Assembly (NCBI GenBank): GCA_944326565.1
Contig: CALVEL010000003.1
Coordinates: forward strand, 1 to 64,000
Origin: Candidatus Gastranaerophilales bacterium
GTDB lineage: Bacteria > Cyanobacteriota > Vampirovibrionia > Gastranaerophilales > Gastranaerophilaceae
DNA length: 64,000 nucleotides
Direction: 5' to 3'
Numbering within the stretch: the stretch's first letter is position 1; every line of letters begins with the position of its first letter. The position numbers and the translations under genes are program-made. This document shows, one piece after another, positions 7,006-63,929 of this stretch. The notes beneath the pieces are model-generated. The model worked only from the letters and a program-made list of their open reading frames with translations. It did no database searches and had not been told where the DNA came from.

Positions 7006-8391
7006 TTAAAAAATTTTATAAGGATTTAGAATATTTTCAGGGTCAAAAATCTTTTTGATAGTTCGCATATATTCCAATGCCAAAGGATTTACAACCATAT
7101 TTATATAATCCCTTTTTAAAACACCTATGCCATGCTCACCAGATAAAATGCCACCGAGTTTTGCAGTCAAATCATATATTTCGGATTTTGCAAGTTTTAA
7201 CCTGTTATATTCATCTTCATCTCTATAATCAATCGGAATCTGAGGATGTACACTTCCATCTCCGACATGACCTACCATACATACATCAAGACTATATTTT
7301 TCACAAATATTCCTTATCCCATATACTAGTTTTGCTAAATTTTCTCTTGGAACAATTACATCATCTGTTGTCACATTCGGTTTTAGTCTTGCGCATGCAC
7401 CCATAGACGACCTTCGAGCTTTCCAAATCCCTTTATATTCTTCTTCATTTGATGAGTTTTGAATTGCAGAGGCTTTTGCATTATGTAATATTGATAAAAT
7501 AATTTCACTTTGATGTTCTATTGCTTCTTTAAACCCGTCAACTTCTATTATCAATGCAGCTTCTTTGTCAGTTAGAAGTCCTGATGGGAAAAATTTTTCT
7601 ACTGTTTGGATTGCGTTTTTATCCATAAAATCAATTGTTGTCGGAAATACTTTTTTATCTATTATTTTATCCACAGCATTCACCGCATATTCTATCGAAT
7701 CAAAATATGCCATTATTACTTGGTGCGCTTGAGGTTTTGGAATTAATTTTACAGTTGCTTCGACAACTACCCCCAAAGTCCCTTCACTACCTATAAAAAG
7801 AGAACCCAAATTATAACCTGTCGCATTTTTAATCGTATTTGCACCGGTTTGTAAAATTTCACCGTTTGCCATTACGACTTTCATATCAATTATATAATCT
7901 TTGGTGGAGCCGTATTTAAAAGTTCTTGCTCCCCCTGATGATTGGGCGATACTTCCGCCTATTGTAGATACAGCTAAATTTGAAGGATCTGGAGGGTAAT
8001 ATAGACCTATTTTTTCAACCTCGTTTTGGAGTTCTCCGACAATTACACCAGGCTGTACTTTTGCTGTCATATTTTTACGATTTATCTCTAATATTTTATT
8101 CATCTTTGAAAAATTCAAAACAATCCCGCCATGTTCTATTGCACATGCTCCGACTACATTTGTACCTGCTCCTCGGCAAATTATGGGAATTTTATACTTT
8201 GATGCAAGTTTAATGATTTTTTGAACTTCTTCTATTGTCTCTACGAATACTACAGCATCCGCTATGTTTTTTATATCAGGAGTATTAGAAGCATCCTGAC
8301 TATATACATATCGTTCTTCAATTTTTGATAATACATTATTGCGGGGTAAAAGTTTTTCTAAATCTTTTATTAAGTTATTCTTCATCAACAT
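7006..8391 (-). CDS. FAD-binding oxidoreductase of the GlcD / D-lactate dehydrogenase family
   Basis: Oxidises a 2-hydroxy acid (glycolate, D-lactate or similar) through FAD. The N-terminal PCMH-type FAD domain has PIICRGAGTNVVGACA (about 71-86), PPDPSN and STIGGSIAQSSGGARTFKYG (about 145-164), and GSEGTLGVV. The C-terminal FAD-oxidase domain has HVGDGSVHPQIPI and GGILSGEHGIG. The 461-residue length is normal for GlcD. Its first 17 nt overlap the end of the giant coiled-coil gene; a second ATG (8385) also lies in the overlap, so the two are probably translationally coupled. The partner Fe-S subunit (GlcF) is not in the window, and the substrate cannot be told from sequence. Confidence 0.9.
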   Translation of the reverse strand: MLMKNNLIKDLEKLLPRNNVLSKIEERYVYSQDASNTPDIKNIADAVVFVETIEEVQKIIKLASKYKIPIICRGAGTNVVGACAIEHGGIVLNFSKMNKILEINRKNMTAKVQPGVIVGELQNEVEKIGLYYPPDPSNLAVSTIGGSIAQSSGGARTFKYGSTKDYIIDMKVVMANGEILQTGANTIKNATGYNLGSLFIGSEGTLGVVVEATVKLIPKPQAHQVIMAYFDSIEYAVNAVDKIIDKKVFPTTIDFMDKNAIQTVEKFFPSGLLTDKEAALIIEVDGFKEAIEHQSEIILSILHNAKASAIQNSSNEEEYKGIWKARRSSMGACARLKPNVTTDDVIVPRENLAKLVYGIRNICEKYSLDVCMVGHVGDGSVHPQIPIDYRDEDEYNRLKLAKSEIYDLTAKLGGILSGEHGIGVLKRDYINMVVNPLALEYMRTIKKIFDPENILNPYKIF

Positions 8392-11300
8392 ATGACGCCA
8401 GCTTTTCTATTCCTTGAGAGAGCTTACTTATTTTGTCATTTAGTTTATCAAGTTTCTTTTCTAAATTCAAGTTATTTTGACTTTCTATTACAGTTAAAAT
8501 TTCATTAAGCTTATTTTCAAGTATGTCTATCTTATTTTGCTGTTCTTCAAACTTCTTCTCTAGTGATTCCACTATAGCAGTATTATCAACCATTGATTTT
8601 AAAAGACAAATTTCAGAATTAATTATTGACACATTAGATGTATCTTCTGCTATTGTATCAAGTTTTTCACTAGCTTGATCTATCCATTCGCCAAGATACA
8701 TCATAACTTGACGTATTACGTTATTTGAATTCGCGGATGATGCTATTGCATTATTTATATTATCTAGTTTTCTTTCTATTACTTCGTTATACTCGTTATT
8801 ATCAAGAGAATCAATACGAGATTGAAGTTGAGTTGTTATTCTACTAAACTCATCCAATCCGTCAGTCAATGCTTTATAAGATTCATCTGAGGTTAGCAGA
8901 AGTTTATTTGTCCTTGAGCTTAGACTCAGGACATCATCGTTAATTTTTTCAATTGTATTTTTAAGCTCTAAAATTTGTTCCTCTGTAAGACTACTATGAA
9001 GTGAATTTATTGAGGATGCAATTTTATGCATATTTTGTGATATTTCATTAATTCCATCTTTGGAGGTTGATGCTGAAATATCATTCAAAATTATTCTTAA
9101 CTTTGCAATGTCTGACTCTATATCTTGCATAGTATATGAATAATCCCATTCATCTGATCCATTTGTTATATTGTTTAATTGTTTTTTTACATCTAATAAA
9201 TTCTTATTAATTTCATCGGTTCTTTCTTCTACAAAATCTTTAATTTCTTCTGTTTCTTCCACAAATGTTATTTGGTCTGCAACAGAAAGTACGGCATTCA
9301 TTACTGAATCTTTTATATCTGAAGCATTCTTTTCTAAATCCAGTCCGACTAATTTCTCTTCTATATTTGAAATATCTGACAAAAGCTCTTTTAGACATTT
9401 ATCTATATTTTCTGAACGTTCAGTATCGCTAAATGTTTCTATTTGTTTTCTTTGTTCATATATTAAATCTTTTATATCCTGTATTTCAGTGATAATTTCT
9501 GATTCATCTGATAATGCAAGAACATCGACTTTATCATGCAATGCTTGCACCATATTTTCTATTTTTTCTTCATTACTATCTGTTACTATAATATCGACTT
9601 TGTCATGTAAAGCTTGCAACATTTCATGTATTTTACTTATATCTGACAATGTAAAACCATCTATCTTTTTATTTAGTAATTCCAGTGTCTCTTTTATACA
9701 TGCAATCTTGACATCATCATCCGATAATATTGCAATATCCACCTTGTCATGCAAAGCATTGAGCATTTCGATCAGTTTTTCATCTTCATCACTTGATGTA
9801 AGTAAATCAATTTTATCCTGTATTACACTTAGCAGCTCTTCTAATGTCTCTGTAGTATCTGACATTGCAATAACATCTACTTTATTATGCAAAGAGGTCA
9901 AATTATCTTTTAAATTTAACAATTCAGAAGATATTTCTGCTGATAAATTATTATTTTCCATCAGATTTGCAATAAATTCTTTTATTTCTTTCTTGTTTGC
10001 TGATGAAGCTGTTTTTATAAAAGCTGTTATTTGTGAAATAATATTATTTTGAGCATTTTCAGAATTTTGCATTATTTTATCTTCAATTGATTTTACATCA
10101 TCTTTCCAGCTGTCTAAAATTGTGTTTGTTTTTTCTATATTATTTGCAAAATTTTTCTCTACTTCTGATATTGTAGAAGTAACTATACCCAACTGGTTCT
10201 TTGTTAAATCTTCAACAATTTCTTCAACTTTTGTAAATTTTTCAATAAGAGTTTTATAAGACTCTTCTAAATGGACATAGTTATCATGATTCTCTGTCAT
10301 ATTATCATTTACATCAGCTGAAAAACTTAAATATGAAAGTTCTATTTGGGATTTTATACTGTCAATTATTTTATCAAAATCATTATTTAAAAATGTATTA
10401 ATAGATTCTTTTAATGGGGTGAATTCATTAACTATTGAATCTGTTTTTGAGTTTATAATTTCAGATAAGTCAGTATTTATAAGTCCTACTTCTTGTCTTA
10501 AAGTATCAATTTTATTACTTATATTATCTGAAAGATCATTTATACCGTCAAAACTGCGTAAATTATTTTCATTCAAAAGCTCTTGAATATTTGCAAATTT
10601 TTCATCAATCACAGCGACACTTTTTTGTATTGATGTATCTATTTGACCATCTACATTTTCTTTTATGTCTGTAATATCAACTAACAAATCATTAAATTTC
10701 GGGATTAATGTGTCAGACAGATTTTTAATCTGTTCATTTTCATCTGTCTTTGTATTTGAAATACTTTGGATTATAGAAAGAACTTCAGATTTCATATCTG
10801 AGATTTCATCAAGTGAAAGTTTTAATTTTTCTGTAGTATCTGAGGAGATAGTATCTATAGACTTGATATAATCAGATATTTTATTTTGAAGCATCATTAA
10901 ATCATCACTGTAGTTATCCCCTGCATCATGCAGAGCTGTCTCTACAGCAAGCATTTTTTCAGCTAATTTTTCATAATACTCCCTATTTACTTCATTATCA
11001 TTTTGATTTTTTATAGTATCAAAATAATCTTTTATGCCGTTTAATTGCTCTTCAAGTGCAGACTTTAAAAGCTGAACATTACTTAAAAATTCAGATTCTA
11101 AATTTTTAATATTATCAGATAAAGTTTCAAATTCGACAATACTTTGATTTTTATCTTTCTTAGAAGATTCTATAAAATCTCGTACCATGTCAAAATTGTT
11201 ATCAATTTCAGTAGCAAGATCCACTCCGAGCATATCGATTTTAGAAGATGTAGATTCAAGACCTGACAATATATTTCCTGAATTTTGCTCAGCTATGGTT

Positions 11301-13501
11301 ATAAATCTTTCATTTATTTCATCTAATTTTTGTTGACTATTAGCATCAGCTTCCTGTAGAACTTCTTTTATAGTTTGAGCATTATTAATTAATTCTGTAG
11401 AAATTTCAGTTCCAAAATTATTTATTCTATCTGAAATTGTTTCAATACCTGCAATTATATTACTTGCATTTTGCTCTGATTTTGATACCAGTCTCGTTTC
11501 CAAATCATTTATACAATTTTTAGATTCAGCTATTGATTGAGTAATTTCACCTTGCACAGTCTGCATTGCGTTTTCAACAGCAGATTGAATATTACTGTCT
11601 GACTCTAATTTCTTCTCGTTTGATACATTTATATTGGATATAATATTTTCAAAATTTTGGTTTGCTGTAGATAAAATACTTTGGACTTTTTCAGAAACCT
11701 CTTTTGAAAGTCTTTCTCCTATATTTAATATTTCATTTTTTGTATCATTCCCAGTTTCGGTTACTAACTCTTTTACCATTCCAAATTTATTTTCAATAGC
11801 ACCTGTTATGCTTTCATCCATTGAATTTATTTTGGTCAAATGAATTTCAAGATTAGATAAAATATTTTCTATGTTTTTTGCTGAAACTGAAGTAAATGTA
11901 TTTGTCAATTCTGTAACTTGTGATTTTAAAGCTTCTATCTGAGCTGATATATTTTTTTCACCATTATCTGTATTATTTTTAAGATTTTCCAAAATAGCTT
12001 TGGTATTATCAGAAGCTTTTTCCACAATTTCTGTCAAAATTTCTCTGTTATCAAGATTTGACTGCTCTATTGTATATTTCAAAGCTTCAAAACTACCGCA
12101 AAAATTATTCAAATCCTTTTTTAAATCAACCAAATCCCCATCAAGTTTTGCATCTATTCTATTTACATTTGCCTCCTGATGAGAATTAAATGCCGTCATA
12201 TTCTCTAAAATTCTTGAAATTTCACCTTTTATATCAACGATTTCTGATACTGAATTCCCAAGTTTTATCGTACTATCTGATGCAAAAGACTCTATAAATT
12301 GAATACTGTTATCAACTTTTTCTTGCAATAATCCAAATTTGTTTTCAAAAACATCCTTGAAATTTACAACAAAATTATCCAATGCTCCAATTTTAGAATC
12401 CAATTTGTCACCAATTCCGGTATTACTTTTATCTATATATGATTTAAAATCATCAATTGATTCTCCGAGTTCTTTAATTTTACCGTTAATTAATGATATA
12501 TAACTTTCACTTTGATTTGAAATACTGGTGTCTATTTTCTTTATGTCATCAGATAATTTTTCTAAATTTTCAAATTTTTGGCGTGCGACACTATCACTTT
12601 CAAATGCACTGTCAAGCTGAGCTTGTCTTATTTCATCAATACAATTAGCCAGTACATCGCGGACTGAATTTAAGTAATCTGATAGTCCCTTAGATACATT
12701 TTCATTAAAATTGATAAGTTCTTCTCGGTTTTTATGAATTTCTGAAAGGATTTCCTCGCTTTTGTCATTTGCTTCTATTTTTTCTGACACCAAAGCGAAA
12801 GAATTATCAATTTTACCGGCTAAATTTATCAAATCATCTTTTACTAATATATTCTTGGCTAAATCATCATTTTTCTGATCAGCAATTTCTAATGAGGAAA
12901 GAATTGCAGTCGTTGATATATAAATATTTTCTAACTCCCTTTTTATAATATCATTTTGATCCGTAACATCCATTGTCATAAGAGTTTTGTTTATTCCTCT
13001 AAGACTTGAATTTACATCCATAATTGATGCCTGAAGCCCTCTATTTACCTCATCAATGCCGTCTTTTACTATTGCAACTTTTTCAATAATCTCATCTTTT
13101 TTAGAATTATCATTTCTAAATTCATCTAACTTTATCTCTACTTCATCAATTAATTTTTTCTGCTCGTCTATTTCATGCGCAAAATTGTCAATATTTTCAT
13201 TAAGGATATTGAACATTATTTTTAAATCTGAGTTTTTCACAAGAAGTTCTTGATTTTCACTCAAACTTTCAAGTGCATTTTTTATGATACCCAAATTTTC
13301 CAAATTGTTTCTATAACGAGATTCCAACGTAACTTCCAATTCTTGAAGGCTTGATTTTATATGCTCAGTCGTAACTCCATCATCAAGAATATCTTCAAGT
13401 TTTGAATTTATTTCCTCTGTAGCTTTTGCAAGTATCTCATTGTTTAATGCATTTTCTGATTTTATAGTGTTTAAAATTTCGTCAATTTCAATTTGTGCCA
13501 T
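8375..13501 (-). CDS. Giant coiled-coil protein (1708 aa) with internal repeats, function unknown
   Basis: The longest gene here and not one I recognise. It has no signal peptide, no membrane segment and almost no Cys, Trp or Pro. It is nearly all heptad-patterned helix rich in Glu, Asp, Lys, Asn, Ile and Leu. Two repeat zones are visible. Four units of about 60-74 residues near 540-790 carry (E/Q)N..NI(I/L)S.(L/I)E followed by a helix. A tighter array near 1200-1330 has six units built on LHDKVD followed by about four residues and SD. The C-terminus is a leucine/lysine heptad segment. AAGGGAAAG precedes the ATG. A filamentous scaffold or spacer is the obvious guess, but no function can be assigned. 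Confidence 0.85.
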   Translation of the reverse strand: MAQIEIDEILNTIKSENALNNEILAKATEEINSKLEDILDDGVTTEHIKSSLQELEVTLESRYRNNLENLGIIKNALESLSENQELLVKNSDLKIMFNILNENIDNFAHEIDEQKKLIDEVEIKLDEFRNDNSKKDEIIEKVAIVKDGIDEVNRGLQASIMDVNSSLRGINKTLMTMDVTDQNDIIKRELENIYISTTAILSSLEIADQKNDDLAKNILVKDDLINLAGKIDNSFALVSEKIEANDKSEEILSEIHKNREELINFNENVSKGLSDYLNSVRDVLANCIDEIRQAQLDSAFESDSVARQKFENLEKLSDDIKKIDTSISNQSESYISLINGKIKELGESIDDFKSYIDKSNTGIGDKLDSKIGALDNFVVNFKDVFENKFGLLQEKVDNSIQFIESFASDSTIKLGNSVSEIVDIKGEISRILENMTAFNSHQEANVNRIDAKLDGDLVDLKKDLNNFCGSFEALKYTIEQSNLDNREILTEIVEKASDNTKAILENLKNNTDNGEKNISAQIEALKSQVTELTNTFTSVSAKNIENILSNLEIHLTKINSMDESITGAIENKFGMVKELVTETGNDTKNEILNIGERLSKEVSEKVQSILSTANQNFENIISNINVSNEKKLESDSNIQSAVENAMQTVQGEITQSIAESKNCINDLETRLVSKSEQNASNIIAGIETISDRINNFGTEISTELINNAQTIKEVLQEADANSQQKLDEINERFITIAEQNSGNILSGLESTSSKIDMLGVDLATEIDNNFDMVRDFIESSKKDKNQSIVEFETLSDNIKNLESEFLSNVQLLKSALEEQLNGIKDYFDTIKNQNDNEVNREYYEKLAEKMLAVETALHDAGDNYSDDLMMLQNKISDYIKSIDTISSDTTEKLKLSLDEISDMKSEVLSIIQSISNTKTDENEQIKNLSDTLIPKFNDLLVDITDIKENVDGQIDTSIQKSVAVIDEKFANIQELLNENNLRSFDGINDLSDNISNKIDTLRQEVGLINTDLSEIINSKTDSIVNEFTPLKESINTFLNNDFDKIIDSIKSQIELSYLSFSADVNDNMTENHDNYVHLEESYKTLIEKFTKVEEIVEDLTKNQLGIVTSTISEVEKNFANNIEKTNTILDSWKDDVKSIEDKIMQNSENAQNNIISQITAFIKTASSANKKEIKEFIANLMENNNLSAEISSELLNLKDNLTSLHNKVDVIAMSDTTETLEELLSVIQDKIDLLTSSDEDEKLIEMLNALHDKVDIAILSDDDVKIACIKETLELLNKKIDGFTLSDISKIHEMLQALHDKVDIIVTDSNEEKIENMVQALHDKVDVLALSDESEIITEIQDIKDLIYEQRKQIETFSDTERSENIDKCLKELLSDISNIEEKLVGLDLEKNASDIKDSVMNAVLSVADQITFVEETEEIKDFVEERTDEINKNLLDVKKQLNNITNGSDEWDYSYTMQDIESDIAKLRIILNDISASTSKDGINEISQNMHKIASSINSLHSSLTEEQILELKNTIEKINDDVLSLSSRTNKLLLTSDESYKALTDGLDEFSRITTQLQSRIDSLDNNEYNEVIERKLDNINNAIASSANSNNVIRQVMMYLGEWIDQASEKLDTIAEDTSNVSIINSEICLLKSMVDNTAIVESLEKKFEEQQNKIDILENKLNEILTVIESQNNLNLEKKLDKLNDKISKLSQGIEKLASYVDEE

Positions 13502-35648: not shown

Positions 35649-35972
35649 TTAACCACCAATCAAGTTCAATGCACAACTTGTTTTGATGTTATTTTGTACC
35701 ATTGACTTCATACTTGCAATTTCGTTATCCAGTACTGTCAACTGAGAATCCAAGGCCTCCTGTCTTGTTGTCAAATATTCTTCTTGTTGTTGCAATGCAA
35801 TATAATACGGATCACTATCAAGATCTGCACCGGTACCCAAATAATCTGCTCTATCAGACATTTGCTGCATTACACGGTTAGCTTGGCTCATAATTAATGT
35901 CTGCTCAAATTGCAACTGGCTTTTTTGCAAAGTAAACAAGCTCTTTTGTGAATCAATTGCTAAAAAAGTCAT
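35649..35972 (-). CDS. Small helical protein, possible minimal relative of the SASQARLL family
   Basis: A 107-residue all-helical protein without signal peptide. It begins MTFLAIDSQKSLFTLQ, and near 20-45 has a helix that resembles the N-terminal helix of the two SASQARLL proteins (QTLIMSQANRVMQQMSDRADYL). The C-terminus DSQLTVLDNEIASMKSMVQNNIK parallels their LD-E-x-L-x-E-Y-D-S-V-K-x-V-I-x-K-N-I-E ending. It thus looks like the two ends of that family without the middle domain. ATG 35972 is used; AAGGAG lies at a good spacing. The relationship is inference from patterns. Confidence 0.6.
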   Translation of the reverse strand: MTFLAIDSQKSLFTLQKSQLQFEQTLIMSQANRVMQQMSDRADYLGTGADLDSDPYYIALQQQEEYLTTRQEALDSQLTVLDNEIASMKSMVQNNIKTSCALNLIGG

Positions 35973-50090: not shown

Positions 50091-51068
50091 TCAAGCAAAG
50101 GTATCAAGATTTACACGTTTTTTAGCGAGGTGTTTATTCAAATCATCTTTGGATATTACGCCATCACCATTTTCATCAAGGCCTTCATTTCCCTCATAAT
50201 ATCCGTCCCCGCGTCTTGTAAGTATTTCATTTTTTGCAAAGCCAGGCACATATGTTACTGCATACAAATCTGCTGCTGACAATTTTTTACCGCCGAATTT
50301 TTTGGTTGTTATTTTATAATATTTCTCAACTAAATCTAACTGTTCTATAGCACTCATTTTTTCTATTTTATCAATAGTCAAATTCAATCCATAGGTTCTA
50401 TTTAATTCTGCAATACCGCCGCTTTCCGTAAATTGGATAAGCCCTACAGCGGTTTTCTTCCCATTTTTATTTTTATGAACACTTGCCGGATTAAGAGTAG
50501 ACTCTGAATTCATTACTGCCAATAAATCTTCATAATCACAATTTATATTTTTAGCTACTTGTTTAACTTTAGCTAAAAACTCTTTTGTTAAATGACTTCC
50601 GGTTATAGTTGAATAAATCGGTCTATAACTTTCTGTATTTGATGAATTATAAGAAAATGGTTTGTAAGTATAATCTTTATTATAATCTTTTGATAAATCA
50701 GTTTGTACAAATGAAGGATATATAAAATCTTTAGAATAATCTTTTACAGGATACATCCCGTCATAAAGACTGTTATATGAATAATTACCAAAGCCGTTAT
50801 TAAAAGAAAAAAGCGGAAAATTATAATAGCCGTAAGCATTATAATTATTATAGTAATAATTATTATAATCCGAACGCTTAGATTTATCGTCATTAAATAA
50901 TGAGGGTGATTTACCGGTAACTAATTGTGCAATAGAGTTAAATAACAAAAAAGGATTATATAATCCATAATATCCGCAAGGCATAAATGATGCCGGCATA
51001 TATCCACTATACATAAATGGATTTGTCATATAAAAATTATTGAAATTTAAATAATGAAATGACATCAT
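50091..51068 (-). CDS. Transglycosylase-like (SLT fold) protein with Tyr/Asn-rich N-terminus and EF-hand
   Basis: The C-terminal half has LAVMNSESTLNPASVHKNKNGKKTAVGLIQFTESGG, like the lysozyme fold of phage/secretion transglycosylases, with E in NSES as the likely acid. Then NGDGV in DENGDGVISKDDL is an EF-hand calcium loop. The first about 150 residues are Tyr/Asn/Phe-rich and low-complexity (YNNYYYNNYNAYGYYN), a prion-like composition. There is no signal peptide, so export may use another route. Start is uncertain (51086, 51068, 51065); TATAAT at 51091-51096 favours a start after it. Possibly a peptidoglycan-remodelling factor for a secretion machine. Confidence 0.7.
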   Translation of the reverse strand: MMSFHYLNFNNFYMTNPFMYSGYMPASFMPCGYYGLYNPFLLFNSIAQLVTGKSPSLFNDDKSKRSDYNNYYYNNYNAYGYYNFPLFSFNNGFGNYSYNSLYDGMYPVKDYSKDFIYPSFVQTDLSKDYNKDYTYKPFSYNSSNTESYRPIYSTITGSHLTKEFLAKVKQVAKNINCDYEDLLAVMNSESTLNPASVHKNKNGKKTAVGLIQFTESGGIAELNRTYGLNLTIDKIEKMSAIEQLDLVEKYYKITTKKFGGKKLSAADLYAVTYVPGFAKNEILTRRGDGYYEGNEGLDENGDGVISKDDLNKHLAKKRVNLDTFA

Positions 51069-51225
51069 ATCCCCAAAATTCCCCATATTATATCTATATA
51101 AAGTATTAAACAATTCAAAAATTTACTTTTTTTAAGTTTTTTGTAAAAAAATATTAATTATATGTAATATTAATTAATGTAAAAAAATATTTTTATTGTA
51201 TTATTTTGTTAGGGTAAAAATAATT

Positions 51226-60887: not shown

Positions 60888-60915
60888 AAAAAGCTTCTTA
60901 TTAAAGAAGCTTTTT
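60888..60915. terminator. Bidirectional intrinsic terminator
   Basis: AAAAAGCTTCTT/AAGAAGCTTTTT stem with a 4-nt loop, between the acyltransferase gene and the convergent SASQARLL gene; its right part overlaps the stop region of that gene. Confidence 0.85.
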
Positions 60916-62596
60916 ATGCACTATATCGTTTAAAACCTTTTTCTACATTCTTTGAAATTACCGATTTTACTGTATCATATTCTGTACTCAATGATGAAAT
61001 TTCAGTATCAAGATTTTTGATTTTCATATCCAAGATATTTTCTTTAGAATTTATCTTACTCTTTTCTCTGTTATATCTGGCTTCTGCTTGAGCAATACCC
61101 TCTTCATTAGTAACTTCTTGGATATAACTATGTGTTGCATAGTTGCTTTGATAATAAAATCCGTCATCTTCAAGAGTTGATATATAGATATTTCCATTTT
61201 TAAGTGACTCTTGGAAATAATCTTGATCATTTATATTATCATTTTCAGTCCAGCCTTTTGTACAAATTTGGTTAAACAATGTATCCCAGAATGCAGCAAC
61301 AAGAAGATTATCCCCTGAAGTATCCACATTGGTAACCATTGTAAATGTGAACATATCATCAATCAAGTTACTGCTTGTTTTAGTTGAGCCTACTTCATAA
61401 GATGAGGTACCAATACCTTCCATATATTGAGCAAAATATGTCAGATATGCATTAAACATATTAGATAAGTTTATAGATACATATGATACTTCACCATCAT
61501 TATCACTATTTCCATCATTATCGTGGTTGTATAAACCACTTAGACCAATATAATCAGCTACCCAGTCTTGTTGTACATATCCATCAGTTTTTGCATCTTT
61601 ATCATTATATTCAGTCCAGCCATCAAAGTTATCATGAATATTCTTACCTTCAGAGCTGTAATCATTACCTTCTTCAGTACCAACTTTACCGATCGGATAT
61701 TTGCCACCTACATCCATGCCTGCACCCAAATTGGTAACTTTATCGGTTATCATACGTCTTGCATAATTAAGAGCTGCCTGAGTATACTCATCACCTGTAT
61801 TGAATAATCCTTCAAAAATTTGGAACATTTGCTCCCAAATTGAGGCATTACAAATTACATCAGTAGCACCACCATCAACAGTAAGGTTATTATAGTTAGT
61901 TGCAGTTCTAACCTTCATCATATAATTACCGGTCAATATATCAGCCATTGTCAATTTATTACCGGCATCTGTATGGGTGTTATTTGCTTGAGAAACTATA
62001 CTTACCTTACTAACAAACTGGTTAGTAAAACTTGTTAAATCAGAAAAGTCAAAATATTCACCTGATACTGCATTTATAACATCTTGTAATGTACCATCCA
62101 TAACTGTAATATTTACAAGATCAGCAGAGCCTATACCTGCAGTTTGGTTATAAGTTGTTTTCTTAATATTTTCACCTTGAATTTCACTTATATAACCTGT
62201 AGATACAAGTGAATCAATAAATTTATTACGAATATCAGAAGATGGCAACCCGTCAAGACCTTCTTGTGGAATTCCAGCAGCTCTTGCAGCTGAAGCCATT
62301 CTGTCATCCAATACAACTCTTCCTGATGAATCAGTTACAGGGGAAGGAGTGTAATTATTCAAAGCAGAAGGTGTCATCAACAATCCATAATTAAGTGGCG
62401 TAACCTCACTATCTTTTCCATAATAATCCCAAACGAGTTTAGTTTGAGCTAATGCATTATCATATTCTGCCGAAATTTTTTCCATATCACGAGACAATGC
62501 GATTTTTTCATGAGAAAGACGCATACTTTCATATTCACAGTCAGACTTTCTGGCTGTTATAGTTAATAATCTAGCTTGTGATGCTGATAATCCCAT
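60914..62596 (-). CDS. SASQARLL-family large protein (560 aa), flagellin-like layout
   Basis: Function unknown. Residues 1-60 (MGLSASQARLLTITARKSDC, then a charged helix) and 500-560 (NREKSKINSKENILDMKIKNLD... VKSVISKNVEKGF) are helical and shared with the gene at 62808-63929. The middle (about 70-490) is Asn/Asp/Thr/Gly-rich with putative Ca-loop-like NHDNDGNSDNDGEVS and YNHDND (about 355-370). There is no Sec signal peptide. Conserved helical ends around a variable middle is the plan of flagellins and similar axial or needle proteins. AAAGGA lies before the ATG. Confidence 0.75.
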   Translation of the reverse strand: MGLSASQARLLTITARKSDCEYESMRLSHEKIALSRDMEKISAEYDNALAQTKLVWDYYGKDSEVTPLNYGLLMTPSALNNYTPSPVTDSSGRVVLDDRMASAARAAGIPQEGLDGLPSSDIRNKFIDSLVSTGYISEIQGENIKKTTYNQTAGIGSADLVNITVMDGTLQDVINAVSGEYFDFSDLTSFTNQFVSKVSIVSQANNTHTDAGNKLTMADILTGNYMMKVRTATNYNNLTVDGGATDVICNASIWEQMFQIFEGLFNTGDEYTQAALNYARRMITDKVTNLGAGMDVGGKYPIGKVGTEEGNDYSSEGKNIHDNFDGWTEYNDKDAKTDGYVQQDWVADYIGLSGLYNHDNDGNSDNDGEVSYVSINLSNMFNAYLTYFAQYMEGIGTSSYEVGSTKTSSNLIDDMFTFTMVTNVDTSGDNLLVAAFWDTLFNQICTKGWTENDNINDQDYFQESLKNGNIYISTLEDDGFYYQSNYATHSYIQEVTNEEGIAQAEARYNREKSKINSKENILDMKIKNLDTEISSLSTEYDTVKSVISKNVEKGFKRYSA

Positions 62597-62719
62597 TGTC
62601 TTAAATGAAATCCTTTCGAGTTAGTAACAATCCTATTTATTCATGTGGTATGACGGCTTTTTCAGACTAAAACTTTAAAAAATAATCCTTAGTTTGTAAC
62701 AATTATTTACATAAAAATT

Positions 62720-62750
62720 ACCAAAATAAAAACCGCTTGAAAAAAGCGGC
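62720..62750 (-). terminator. Terminator of the second SASQARLL gene
   Basis: CCGCTT/AAGCGG hairpin (62733-62749) followed on the minus strand by TTTTTATTTT. Confidence 0.75.
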
Positions 62751-62807
62751 AGGGAAATAGTTACGAAATTAGGGGAAATAATTTTAAAATCGCATTAAAT
62801 ATTTTTA

Positions 62808-63929
62808 TTATGAAAATATATTAAATGTTTTTTCAATATTTTTATCAATAACATCTTTCACAGAATCATATTCTGTTTGTAATGCATTATGTTCAGTATC
62901 TAGTTTTTTCAATTCAAGGTCGAATTTATTATCTTTCTGTTCTGCATCAGCCATATCCATTTCATATTGCTGCTCTACAATAGCAATTTGTCTTTCATCT
63001 TCTACTTCTTGAATTGCACTATCACTATCAATTGAAGTAGATATAAACTTTTTATCGGCTGATGAATAATATTCTAATTGTAATTCACCTTTGCGTAATT
63101 GTTCTTCAAACCAAGCATTATCTTTTATTGTGGTAGAAGGATCATCCTCTGTATAATATCCACTTTGTTGTATTCGATTAAAGATATTCTTTAAGTATTG
63201 GATATAAGGTTGATTTTCAGAATCAGCAGCCGTCTTCAAAGCAGAGGTATCTGAATCTCCATAATAGGTCTCAGTCAAAGCGACAGCATAATCATATAAT
63301 TCACGCTGTTCTTGAGTAGTTCCTTCATAATTTAAAGGCACAGTTTTACCATCAAGTGTATATGTTGGATATCCGTTAAAATATCCAGCACCAAGAGTTG
63401 TATAACCAAATTCAAGACCATGTTCTTCATCTTCAAAATGTAATCCGACTGAAGTCAAATATTGGTCCCAAGCTTCATGAACTTTTTGTTTTGTAAGCAA
63501 TTTATCCGCATCTGTATCCTCATCACCTGATGTATTTTTGGTAATATCAATATTTGCTTGAGAATATCCTAGAGCTGCTAAAAATTTATTTATATCTCCA
63601 TTTCCTGACTCATAAGCTTTTGCTATTTCATCAGTTACTAAGACTTTCCCATCAGTATTGGTAACTACATATTGTTTTCCTGCTGCAACAGTATTGTAGC
63701 CTGTCAGCAGACTGTATGAAATATCGGTATAAACTTCTTCTGAATTATTAAACCCTGTGAGAACCGTTAATTTTGTTGCTTTAAGAGCTTCCAAATAATC
63801 CTCATTAATCTGATCCATTTTATCAGCTAATTGTATTTTAGAATATGAAATGTTTTGACCTGAATTTTCATTATCGGTCAATCGAGCTGTAATGCTTAGC
63901 AATCTAGCTTGTGATGCTGACATTCCCAT
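62808..63929 (-). CDS. SASQARLL-family protein (373 aa), flagellin-like layout
   Basis: Shares with the 560-residue neighbour the N-terminus MGMSASQARLLSITARLTDN followed by a helix (SYSKIQLADKMDQINEDYLEAL) and the C-terminus LDTEHNALQTEYDSVKDVI then DKNIEKTFNIFS. The middle (about 60-320) differs: residues Tyr/Gly/Asp-rich, e.g. GYTTLGAGYFNGYPTYTLDG. No signal peptide. AAAGGA precedes the ATG. It and its neighbour are separate units with their own terminators, so they are probably paralogues that have diverged in the middle. Confidence 0.75.
   Translation of the reverse strand: MGMSASQARLLSITARLTDNENSGQNISYSKIQLADKMDQINEDYLEALKATKLTVLTGFNNSEEVYTDISYSLLTGYNTVAAGKQYVVTNTDGKVLVTDEIAKAYESGNGDINKFLAALGYSQANIDITKNTSGDEDTDADKLLTKQKVHEAWDQYLTSVGLHFEDEEHGLEFGYTTLGAGYFNGYPTYTLDGKTVPLNYEGTTQEQRELYDYAVALTETYYGDSDTSALKTAADSENQPYIQYLKNIFNRIQQSGYYTEDDPSTTIKDNAWFEEQLRKGELQLEYYSSADKKFISTSIDSDSAIQEVEDERQIAIVEQQYEMDMADAEQKDNKFDLELKKLDTEHNALQTEYDSVKDVIDKNIEKTFNIFS

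Follow-up and report, generated by a model that had tools for sequence, protein, structure and literature searches.

A lineage-specific family of hairpin-ended proteins and a second flagellar-type export system in Gastranaerophilales: putative substrates and their putative machine

The Gastranaerophilales, gut relatives of the cyanobacteria that are both widespread and poorly cultured, have no known host-contact machinery. Here, we analysed a stretch of 64,000 nucleotides, hereafter the window, from a Candidatus Gastranaerophilales bacterium (assembly GCA_944326565.1, contig CALVEL010000003.1, positions 1 to 64,000 of the forward strand; genome G000, 1.87 Mb), in which two neighbouring genes encode proteins with shared ends and unlike middles. 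These genes belong to a new, lineage-specific family of hairpin proteins with a removable centre, which stands as a family of its own. Besides, a second flagellar-type export system devoid of filament (hereafter system 2) is universal among the 30 genomes of the window's taxonomic family (Gastranaerophilaceae) sampled for it. We infer, with chances that we judge evenly balanced, that the hairpin proteins could be exported by system 2 as substrates without signal peptide, and that they would form or decorate an extracellular appendage.

A protein family with conserved ends and a variable centre

The window features that define the family, all on the minus strand, are the following.

60914..62596 (including the stop codon), minus strand: family member 1, 560 residues; start MGLSASQARLL, middle of ~433 residues and conserved C-terminal helix (end profile, E = 8e-42).
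62432..62596, minus strand: conserved N-terminal end of member 1, residues 1-55 (paralogue alignment and end profile).
60917..61132, minus strand: conserved C-terminal end of member 1, last 72 residues, LDTEISSLSTEYDTVKSVISKNVEK (paralogue alignment and end profile).
62808..63929, minus strand: family member 2, 373 residues; start MGMSASQARLL, middle of ~246 residues (end profile, E = 5e-48; AlphaFold model).
63783..63926, minus strand: predicted N-terminal helix of member 2, residues 2-49 (AlphaFold2).
62997..63782, minus strand: variable alpha/beta middle domain of member 2, residues 50-311 (AlphaFold2), without match to known domains.
62814..62996, minus strand: predicted C-terminal helix of member 2, residues 312-372 (AlphaFold2).
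35649..35972, minus strand: putative distant minimal relative of 107 residues, two helical ends without a middle; orthologues in many genomes of Gastranaerophilaceae.

An earlier note, made from the sequence alone, had described these three open reading frames (ORFs), and all were found at the positions that it gave, the shortest one having an alternative start that extends it to 119 residues. The near-identical ends that it reported are indeed shared far above chance: sequence searches aligned the N-terminal ends of members 1 and 2 with 40% identity (residues 1-106 of member 1, E = 4.9e-12), and their C-terminal regions with 34% identity (residues 336-559 of member 1, E = 1.1e-15). The C-terminal motif proposed there was correct as a pattern but not in its spacing, the sequences reading LD-x-E-x3-L-x-TEYD instead of x4. 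Once ends of 55 and 72 residues are set aside, the middles measure ~433 and ~246 residues and are unrelated to each other; across 34 relatives, conservation in member 2 reaches 0.64 at the N-terminal end and 0.60 at the C-terminal end, versus 0.39 in the middle. The absence of signal peptide was also confirmed (peak 12-residue Kyte-Doolittle mean of 0.3-1.1 within the first 35 residues).

Each window protein retrieved eight more long paralogues in G000, which contains at least 10 long members. When 10 paralogues were aligned, N-terminal positions M1, G2, A5, S6, Q7, A8, R9, L11, T14, R16, E21 and L34 were invariant, as were C-terminal positions including D344, E346, T352, E353, I361 and E366; the start reads MG(M/L)(S/A)ASQAR(L/F/Y)L, D-x-E-x5-TE is fixed near the end, and the middles hardly align. 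Across the family, the centre ranges from nothing to ~700 residues. All ten proteins have an isoelectric point of 4.1-4.5 and start without a hydrophobic stretch, and their middles display an acidic, surface-protein-like composition: poor in Lys+Arg (6.8% versus 12.7% in window proteins), rich in Asn/Thr/Ser/Gly/Gln (35% versus 27%), and also Tyr/Trp-rich compared with other window proteins. In one paralogue pair, DNA identity drops from 99-100% at the 3' end to ~75% in the middle and is 90-97% at the 5' end, a mosaic pattern suggesting recombination around an exchangeable centre. Two neighbouring paralogues of G000 (C4:146242-147864 and C4:150778-152568), with near-identical ends and diverged middles, fit gene conversion or cassette exchange.

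A profile built from the two conserved ends (A2) was run on a sample of genomes from the phylum. It matched all 130 genomes of Gastranaerophilaceae and one genome from another family of the order, none of the five genomes from another group of the class, and one genome, marginally, elsewhere in the phylum. In relatives L024, L025 and L027, the orthologues of members 1 and 2 are located close to one another. Named records carrying the family are overwhelmingly ‘Candidatus Gastranaerophilales’ gut metagenome-assembled genomes, and the labels Fusobacterium, Brachyspira and Acinetobacter borne by some of them are probably erroneous, the genomes being from the same group. Scans of Pfam, NCBIfam and PHROGs returned only sub-threshold coiled-coil matches, and the PDB sequence search only chance ones. 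This distribution, along with the lack of any Pfam or NCBIfam name, points to a lineage-specific, multi-copy and unnamed family; no description of it, or of a second export system in Gastranaerophilales, was found in the open-access papers searched. A phage origin was rejected, as no PHROG matched and the genes are chromosomal and scattered.

The AlphaFold2 model of member 2 (pLDDT 86, pTM 0.68) consists of a helix (residues 2-49), an alpha/beta head and a second helix (residues 312-372). A natural member of 117 residues, made of both ends without a middle, is encoded in L095 (E = 3e-28 against an end profile built excluding it); its model is a hairpin of two helices (pLDDT 92). Thus, the N- and C-terminal helices, whose pairing the earlier note had proposed to check, do pair by prediction, most directly in this minimal member; in the long member 2, homology suggests that they do so as well. 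Foldseek returned nothing at E <= 0.001 for either model; the best superpositions of the 117-residue hairpin on solved structures were with other antiparallel helical hairpins, among them PspA (TM ~0.8, with non-significant E-values).

Small hairpins of ~108-112 residues (profile A5) were detected in 30/30 genomes, with full-length matches at E < 1e-15 in 28. They match the end profile (E = 7e-16 to 1e-5) and align with long members (hhalign, 98%, E = 1.9e-13). The 107-residue window protein, which has matches in 22 of the 30 genomes, is a more delicate case. Its description as two ends without the middle holds through intermediates (hhalign, 98.5%, E = 3.7e-15), which include L134-L136, one of them starting with MTIASAQARLLTLTMYKSDLEY; with close orthologues only, the alignment falls to 65% (E = 6e-5), and the direct link to the end profile is marginal (E = 9e-4 among 3,028 ORFs). 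We count it among the minimal members, as a distant one.

A second flagellar-type export system

The earlier note had also called for a search for flagellar-type export genes. Such genes are present in G000, one set lying beside a family paralogue.

C1:151539-157631: FliE, FliF (full-length), FliH and FlhA in one run.
C3:112102-115760: FliO/P/Q/R-like genes and an SctQ/FliN-like ring protein (FliQ and FliR recognized by eye from sequence and order).
C1:65682-68001: FlgF/G/B/C-like rod proteins.
C5:123838: FlhB.

Two genomes (G012 and G018) have the same export genes in a single operon, together with a lytic transglycosylase and a FliI-type ATPase, both assigned by eye from sequence and not by model. 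System 2 thus has a complete export core, combining the export gate of a flagellum (FlhA, FlhB and FliPQR) with FliE, FliF, FliH, an SctQ-like ring and rod proteins, and has neither a recognizable FliG torque ring nor a flagellin filament.

FlhA, FliP and FlhB were detected in 30/30 genomes. A second, higher-scoring FlhA and FliP are restricted to 12 genomes, the same ones in which flagellin occurs, and a second FlhB in all of these except G029, which has one copy only; FliG was found in 11 of these 12 genomes and in none of the 18 others. The coexistence of system 2 with true flagella in 12 genomes shows that it is more than a flagellum in decay, namely a separate, retained system. Indeed, system-2 FlhA forms a separate, fully supported clade with 37% identity to the flagellar FlhA of the same taxonomic family, and is nearer to the FlhA of f3, a different group within the class (47%). 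It scores below the trusted cut-offs of both the flagellar (694.8 versus 772.1 bits) and the injectisome model (585.2 versus 692.3 bits), so that no SctV-type gate is detected above the curated cut-off.

The protein of ~315-353 residues located between FliF and FliH was considered as a diverged FliG, without support (hhalign probability 2%). Apart from the gene runs above, a 501-residue protein of G000 (C6:132793-134298, L023) corresponds to the cytosolic C-terminal part of FlhA only, without the export-gate membrane part (TIGR01398, 154 bits, model positions 315-678). It was found in nearly all 30 genomes and might serve as a soluble receptor for substrates or chaperones.

Linking the family to system 2

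In G000, a family paralogue (C1:143276-144868) is followed by genes for a ~273-residue protein, a protein of ~92-93 residues and a 108-residue hairpin, a few kb upstream of FliE-FliF-FliH-FlhA. The same gene order precedes FliE-FlhA in G006 and G007, and L095 displays the same unit with the 117-residue minimal member first, plus one additional short ORF. Overall, a hairpin of 108-112 residues, whose fold is deduced from the 117-residue relative, lies within ~10 kb of system-2 FlhA on the same contig in 6/30 genomes (G000, G006, G007, G010, G013 and G022), and elsewhere in the others. The possibility that the family tracks the true flagellum was rejected: 18 of the 30 genomes lack flagellin, and the family is present in every one of these that belonged to the phylum sample, G000 among them.

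Several observations weigh against substrates of system 2. In 24/30 genomes, the small hairpin is not near system-2 FlhA and mostly sits on another contig, and most family genes are scattered outside the export operon. The universality of both partners within one taxonomic family is weak evidence, because any core gene would show the same. Two of the 130 genomes (G082 and G236) keep the family with no full FlhA in the assembly, which may be an assembly gap, and the f3 relatives, from another order, have a related FlhA and no hairpin family. The two-helix hairpin is a common fold, for which the fold search gave no significant match. Finally, no outer-membrane exit (secretin or L/P ring) was identified for system 2, no search aimed at secretins, FlgH or FlgI having been made.

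The mechanism that we propose would be as follows. A flagellum-derived second type III export apparatus, kept group-wide, would export hairpin proteins without signal peptide, the export signal being carried in their conserved N-terminal end. Small hairpins would polymerize on or above the rod, much as needle subunits do, and long versions would co-assemble via the same hairpin, their variable heads being displayed outside the cell. In the animal gut, such an appendage would probably serve for contact, adhesion or immune-exposed display rather than for motility. A bolder formulation, which we hold only tentatively and find somewhat doubtful, is that system 2 is a type III machine of a third kind, distinct from both flagellum and injectisome: a basal body with a rod, devoid of motor and filament, building an external polymer of the hairpin family, with at least 10 interchangeable mosaic subunits per genome showing different heads in the animal gut.

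Alternative explanations

The family could instead gather individual substrates of system 2 (effectors, adhesins or translocator-like proteins), the hairpin being only a shared secretion and chaperone-binding module and not an assembly domain. The long, unrelated middles and at least 10 paralogues per genome fit such a repertoire, the hairpin contains the N-terminus, where type III signals reside, and the neighbouring ~273-residue proteins, Gly-rich and containing a hydrophobic stretch, might be of the translocator type. However, type III signals need the N-terminus only, whereas the C-terminal ~60 residues are here equally conserved (0.60 versus 0.64), and free hairpins of ~110 residues exist without cargo; we thus consider this explanation unlikely, albeit the strongest of the competitors. 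Cytoplasmic coiled-coil proteins, scaffold or chaperone-like and unlinked to export, would account for the scattered genes and for the outcome of the fold searches, in which the hairpin resembles cytosolic antiparallel coiled coils, prefoldin and PspA among them. Yet such proteins would hardly be expected to have very acidic, Lys/Arg-poor middles, rich in Asn/Thr/Ser/Gly/Gln and Tyr/Trp, unlike other window proteins; these middles are also variable and mosaic, and one member is syntenic with the export operon, which makes a cytoplasmic role rather improbable.

Lastly, the family could comprise divergent flagellins or hook-associated proteins left over from a filament, system 2 being a decaying flagellum. 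Conserved helical ends around a variable centre are in line with this idea, as is the interpretation by earlier papers of partial flagellar gene sets in the group as flagella loss (PMC3787301; PMC4040986). Flagellin, hook and cap structures do appear among the fold matches, but only at E >= ~0.45 and probability <= 0.12. Neither Flagellin_N nor Flagellin_C was among the Pfam matches of the family, the PDB sequence search gave no support, and Flagellin_N matched nowhere in G000, a genome therefore without flagellin. Moreover, system-2 FlhA is a distinct clade, and both the family and system 2 also occur in genomes with a separate flagellar set and true flagellins, which largely refutes this explanation; we regard it as very improbable.

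Other features of the window and genomes

The ~273-residue Gly-rich protein, which starts with NDSYLVIANKFG, lies between the family member and the hairpin in G000 (C1:144885-145706, L014), with equivalents in L107, L115 and L095. It has a hydrophobic segment near residues 160-190, and hairpin profiles match it just below threshold (E ~0.03-0.5). Two paralogues of ~456 residues (C1:171542-172909 and C1:173094-174470, L022) consist of Gln/Thr/Ser-rich coiled coils flanking a short hydrophobic stretch; they have no signal peptide and are vaguely type III translocator-like. When the ~273-residue and ~455-residue neighbour proteins were checked for translocator families, no family matched.

Within the window, a 340-residue protein (50091-51113), whose C-terminal half reads as lytic transglycosylase (SLT)-like, has no obvious signal peptide and could be another export substrate. 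A 1708-residue protein (8375-13501) is apparently nearly all helical, also without signal peptide. Many scattered prepilin-like proteins (FTLAEVLITLGIIG) were noticed in L021, L022, L023, L104 and L108, several with a repeated upstream leader of the GGGAPENKLL type.

Comparison with known systems

The ‘incomplete flagella’ of Gastranaerophilales (Di Rienzi 2013, Soo 2014) were viewed as a reduction, whereas we observed a second, separate set in 30/30 genomes, beside true flagella in 12. If our reading is right, these supposed remnants would be a live secretion system, universally retained and provided with a large matching family of putatively surface-displayed proteins.

The likeness to flagellin put forward in the earlier note holds as a plan and not as kinship. 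Like Flagellin/FlgL (PF00669, PF00700), the family has conserved N- and C-terminal helices, here predicted to pair, around a variable centre, no Sec signal and a presumed flagellar-type export; unlike them, it shows no sequence or significant structural match (nor does it match EspA), has minimal members of ~110 residues and occurs in a host genome without flagellin. By analogy, the family may work as axial proteins of the flagellin or needle type do, while lying outside flagellin itself. Injectisome needle subunits are ~80 residues long. As with the needle proteins SctF/PrgI, the small form here is a predicted two-helix hairpin without signal peptide; in contrast, it reaches ~110 residues and has long relatives with the same ends, and no needle family was found among the Pfam or PDB matches. 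Needle and flagellin/FlgL profiles are themselves mutually similar (Abby and Rocha 2012, PMC3459982).

The non-flagellar type III secretion system of Myxococcales, which lacks a secretin as well as FlgB, FlgC and FliE (PMC3459982), resembles system 2 in its flagellum-derived export core, its absence of motility parts and the fact that no outer-membrane exit has been identified so far (for system 2, without a dedicated secretin search). Unlike it, system 2 retains FlgB/C/F/G-like rod proteins, FliE and a full-length FliF. Should the proposed reading be true, system 2 would be a natural intermediate between flagellum and injectisome, distinct from that of Myxococcales, and the origin of injectisomes from flagella would become testable in a second lineage.
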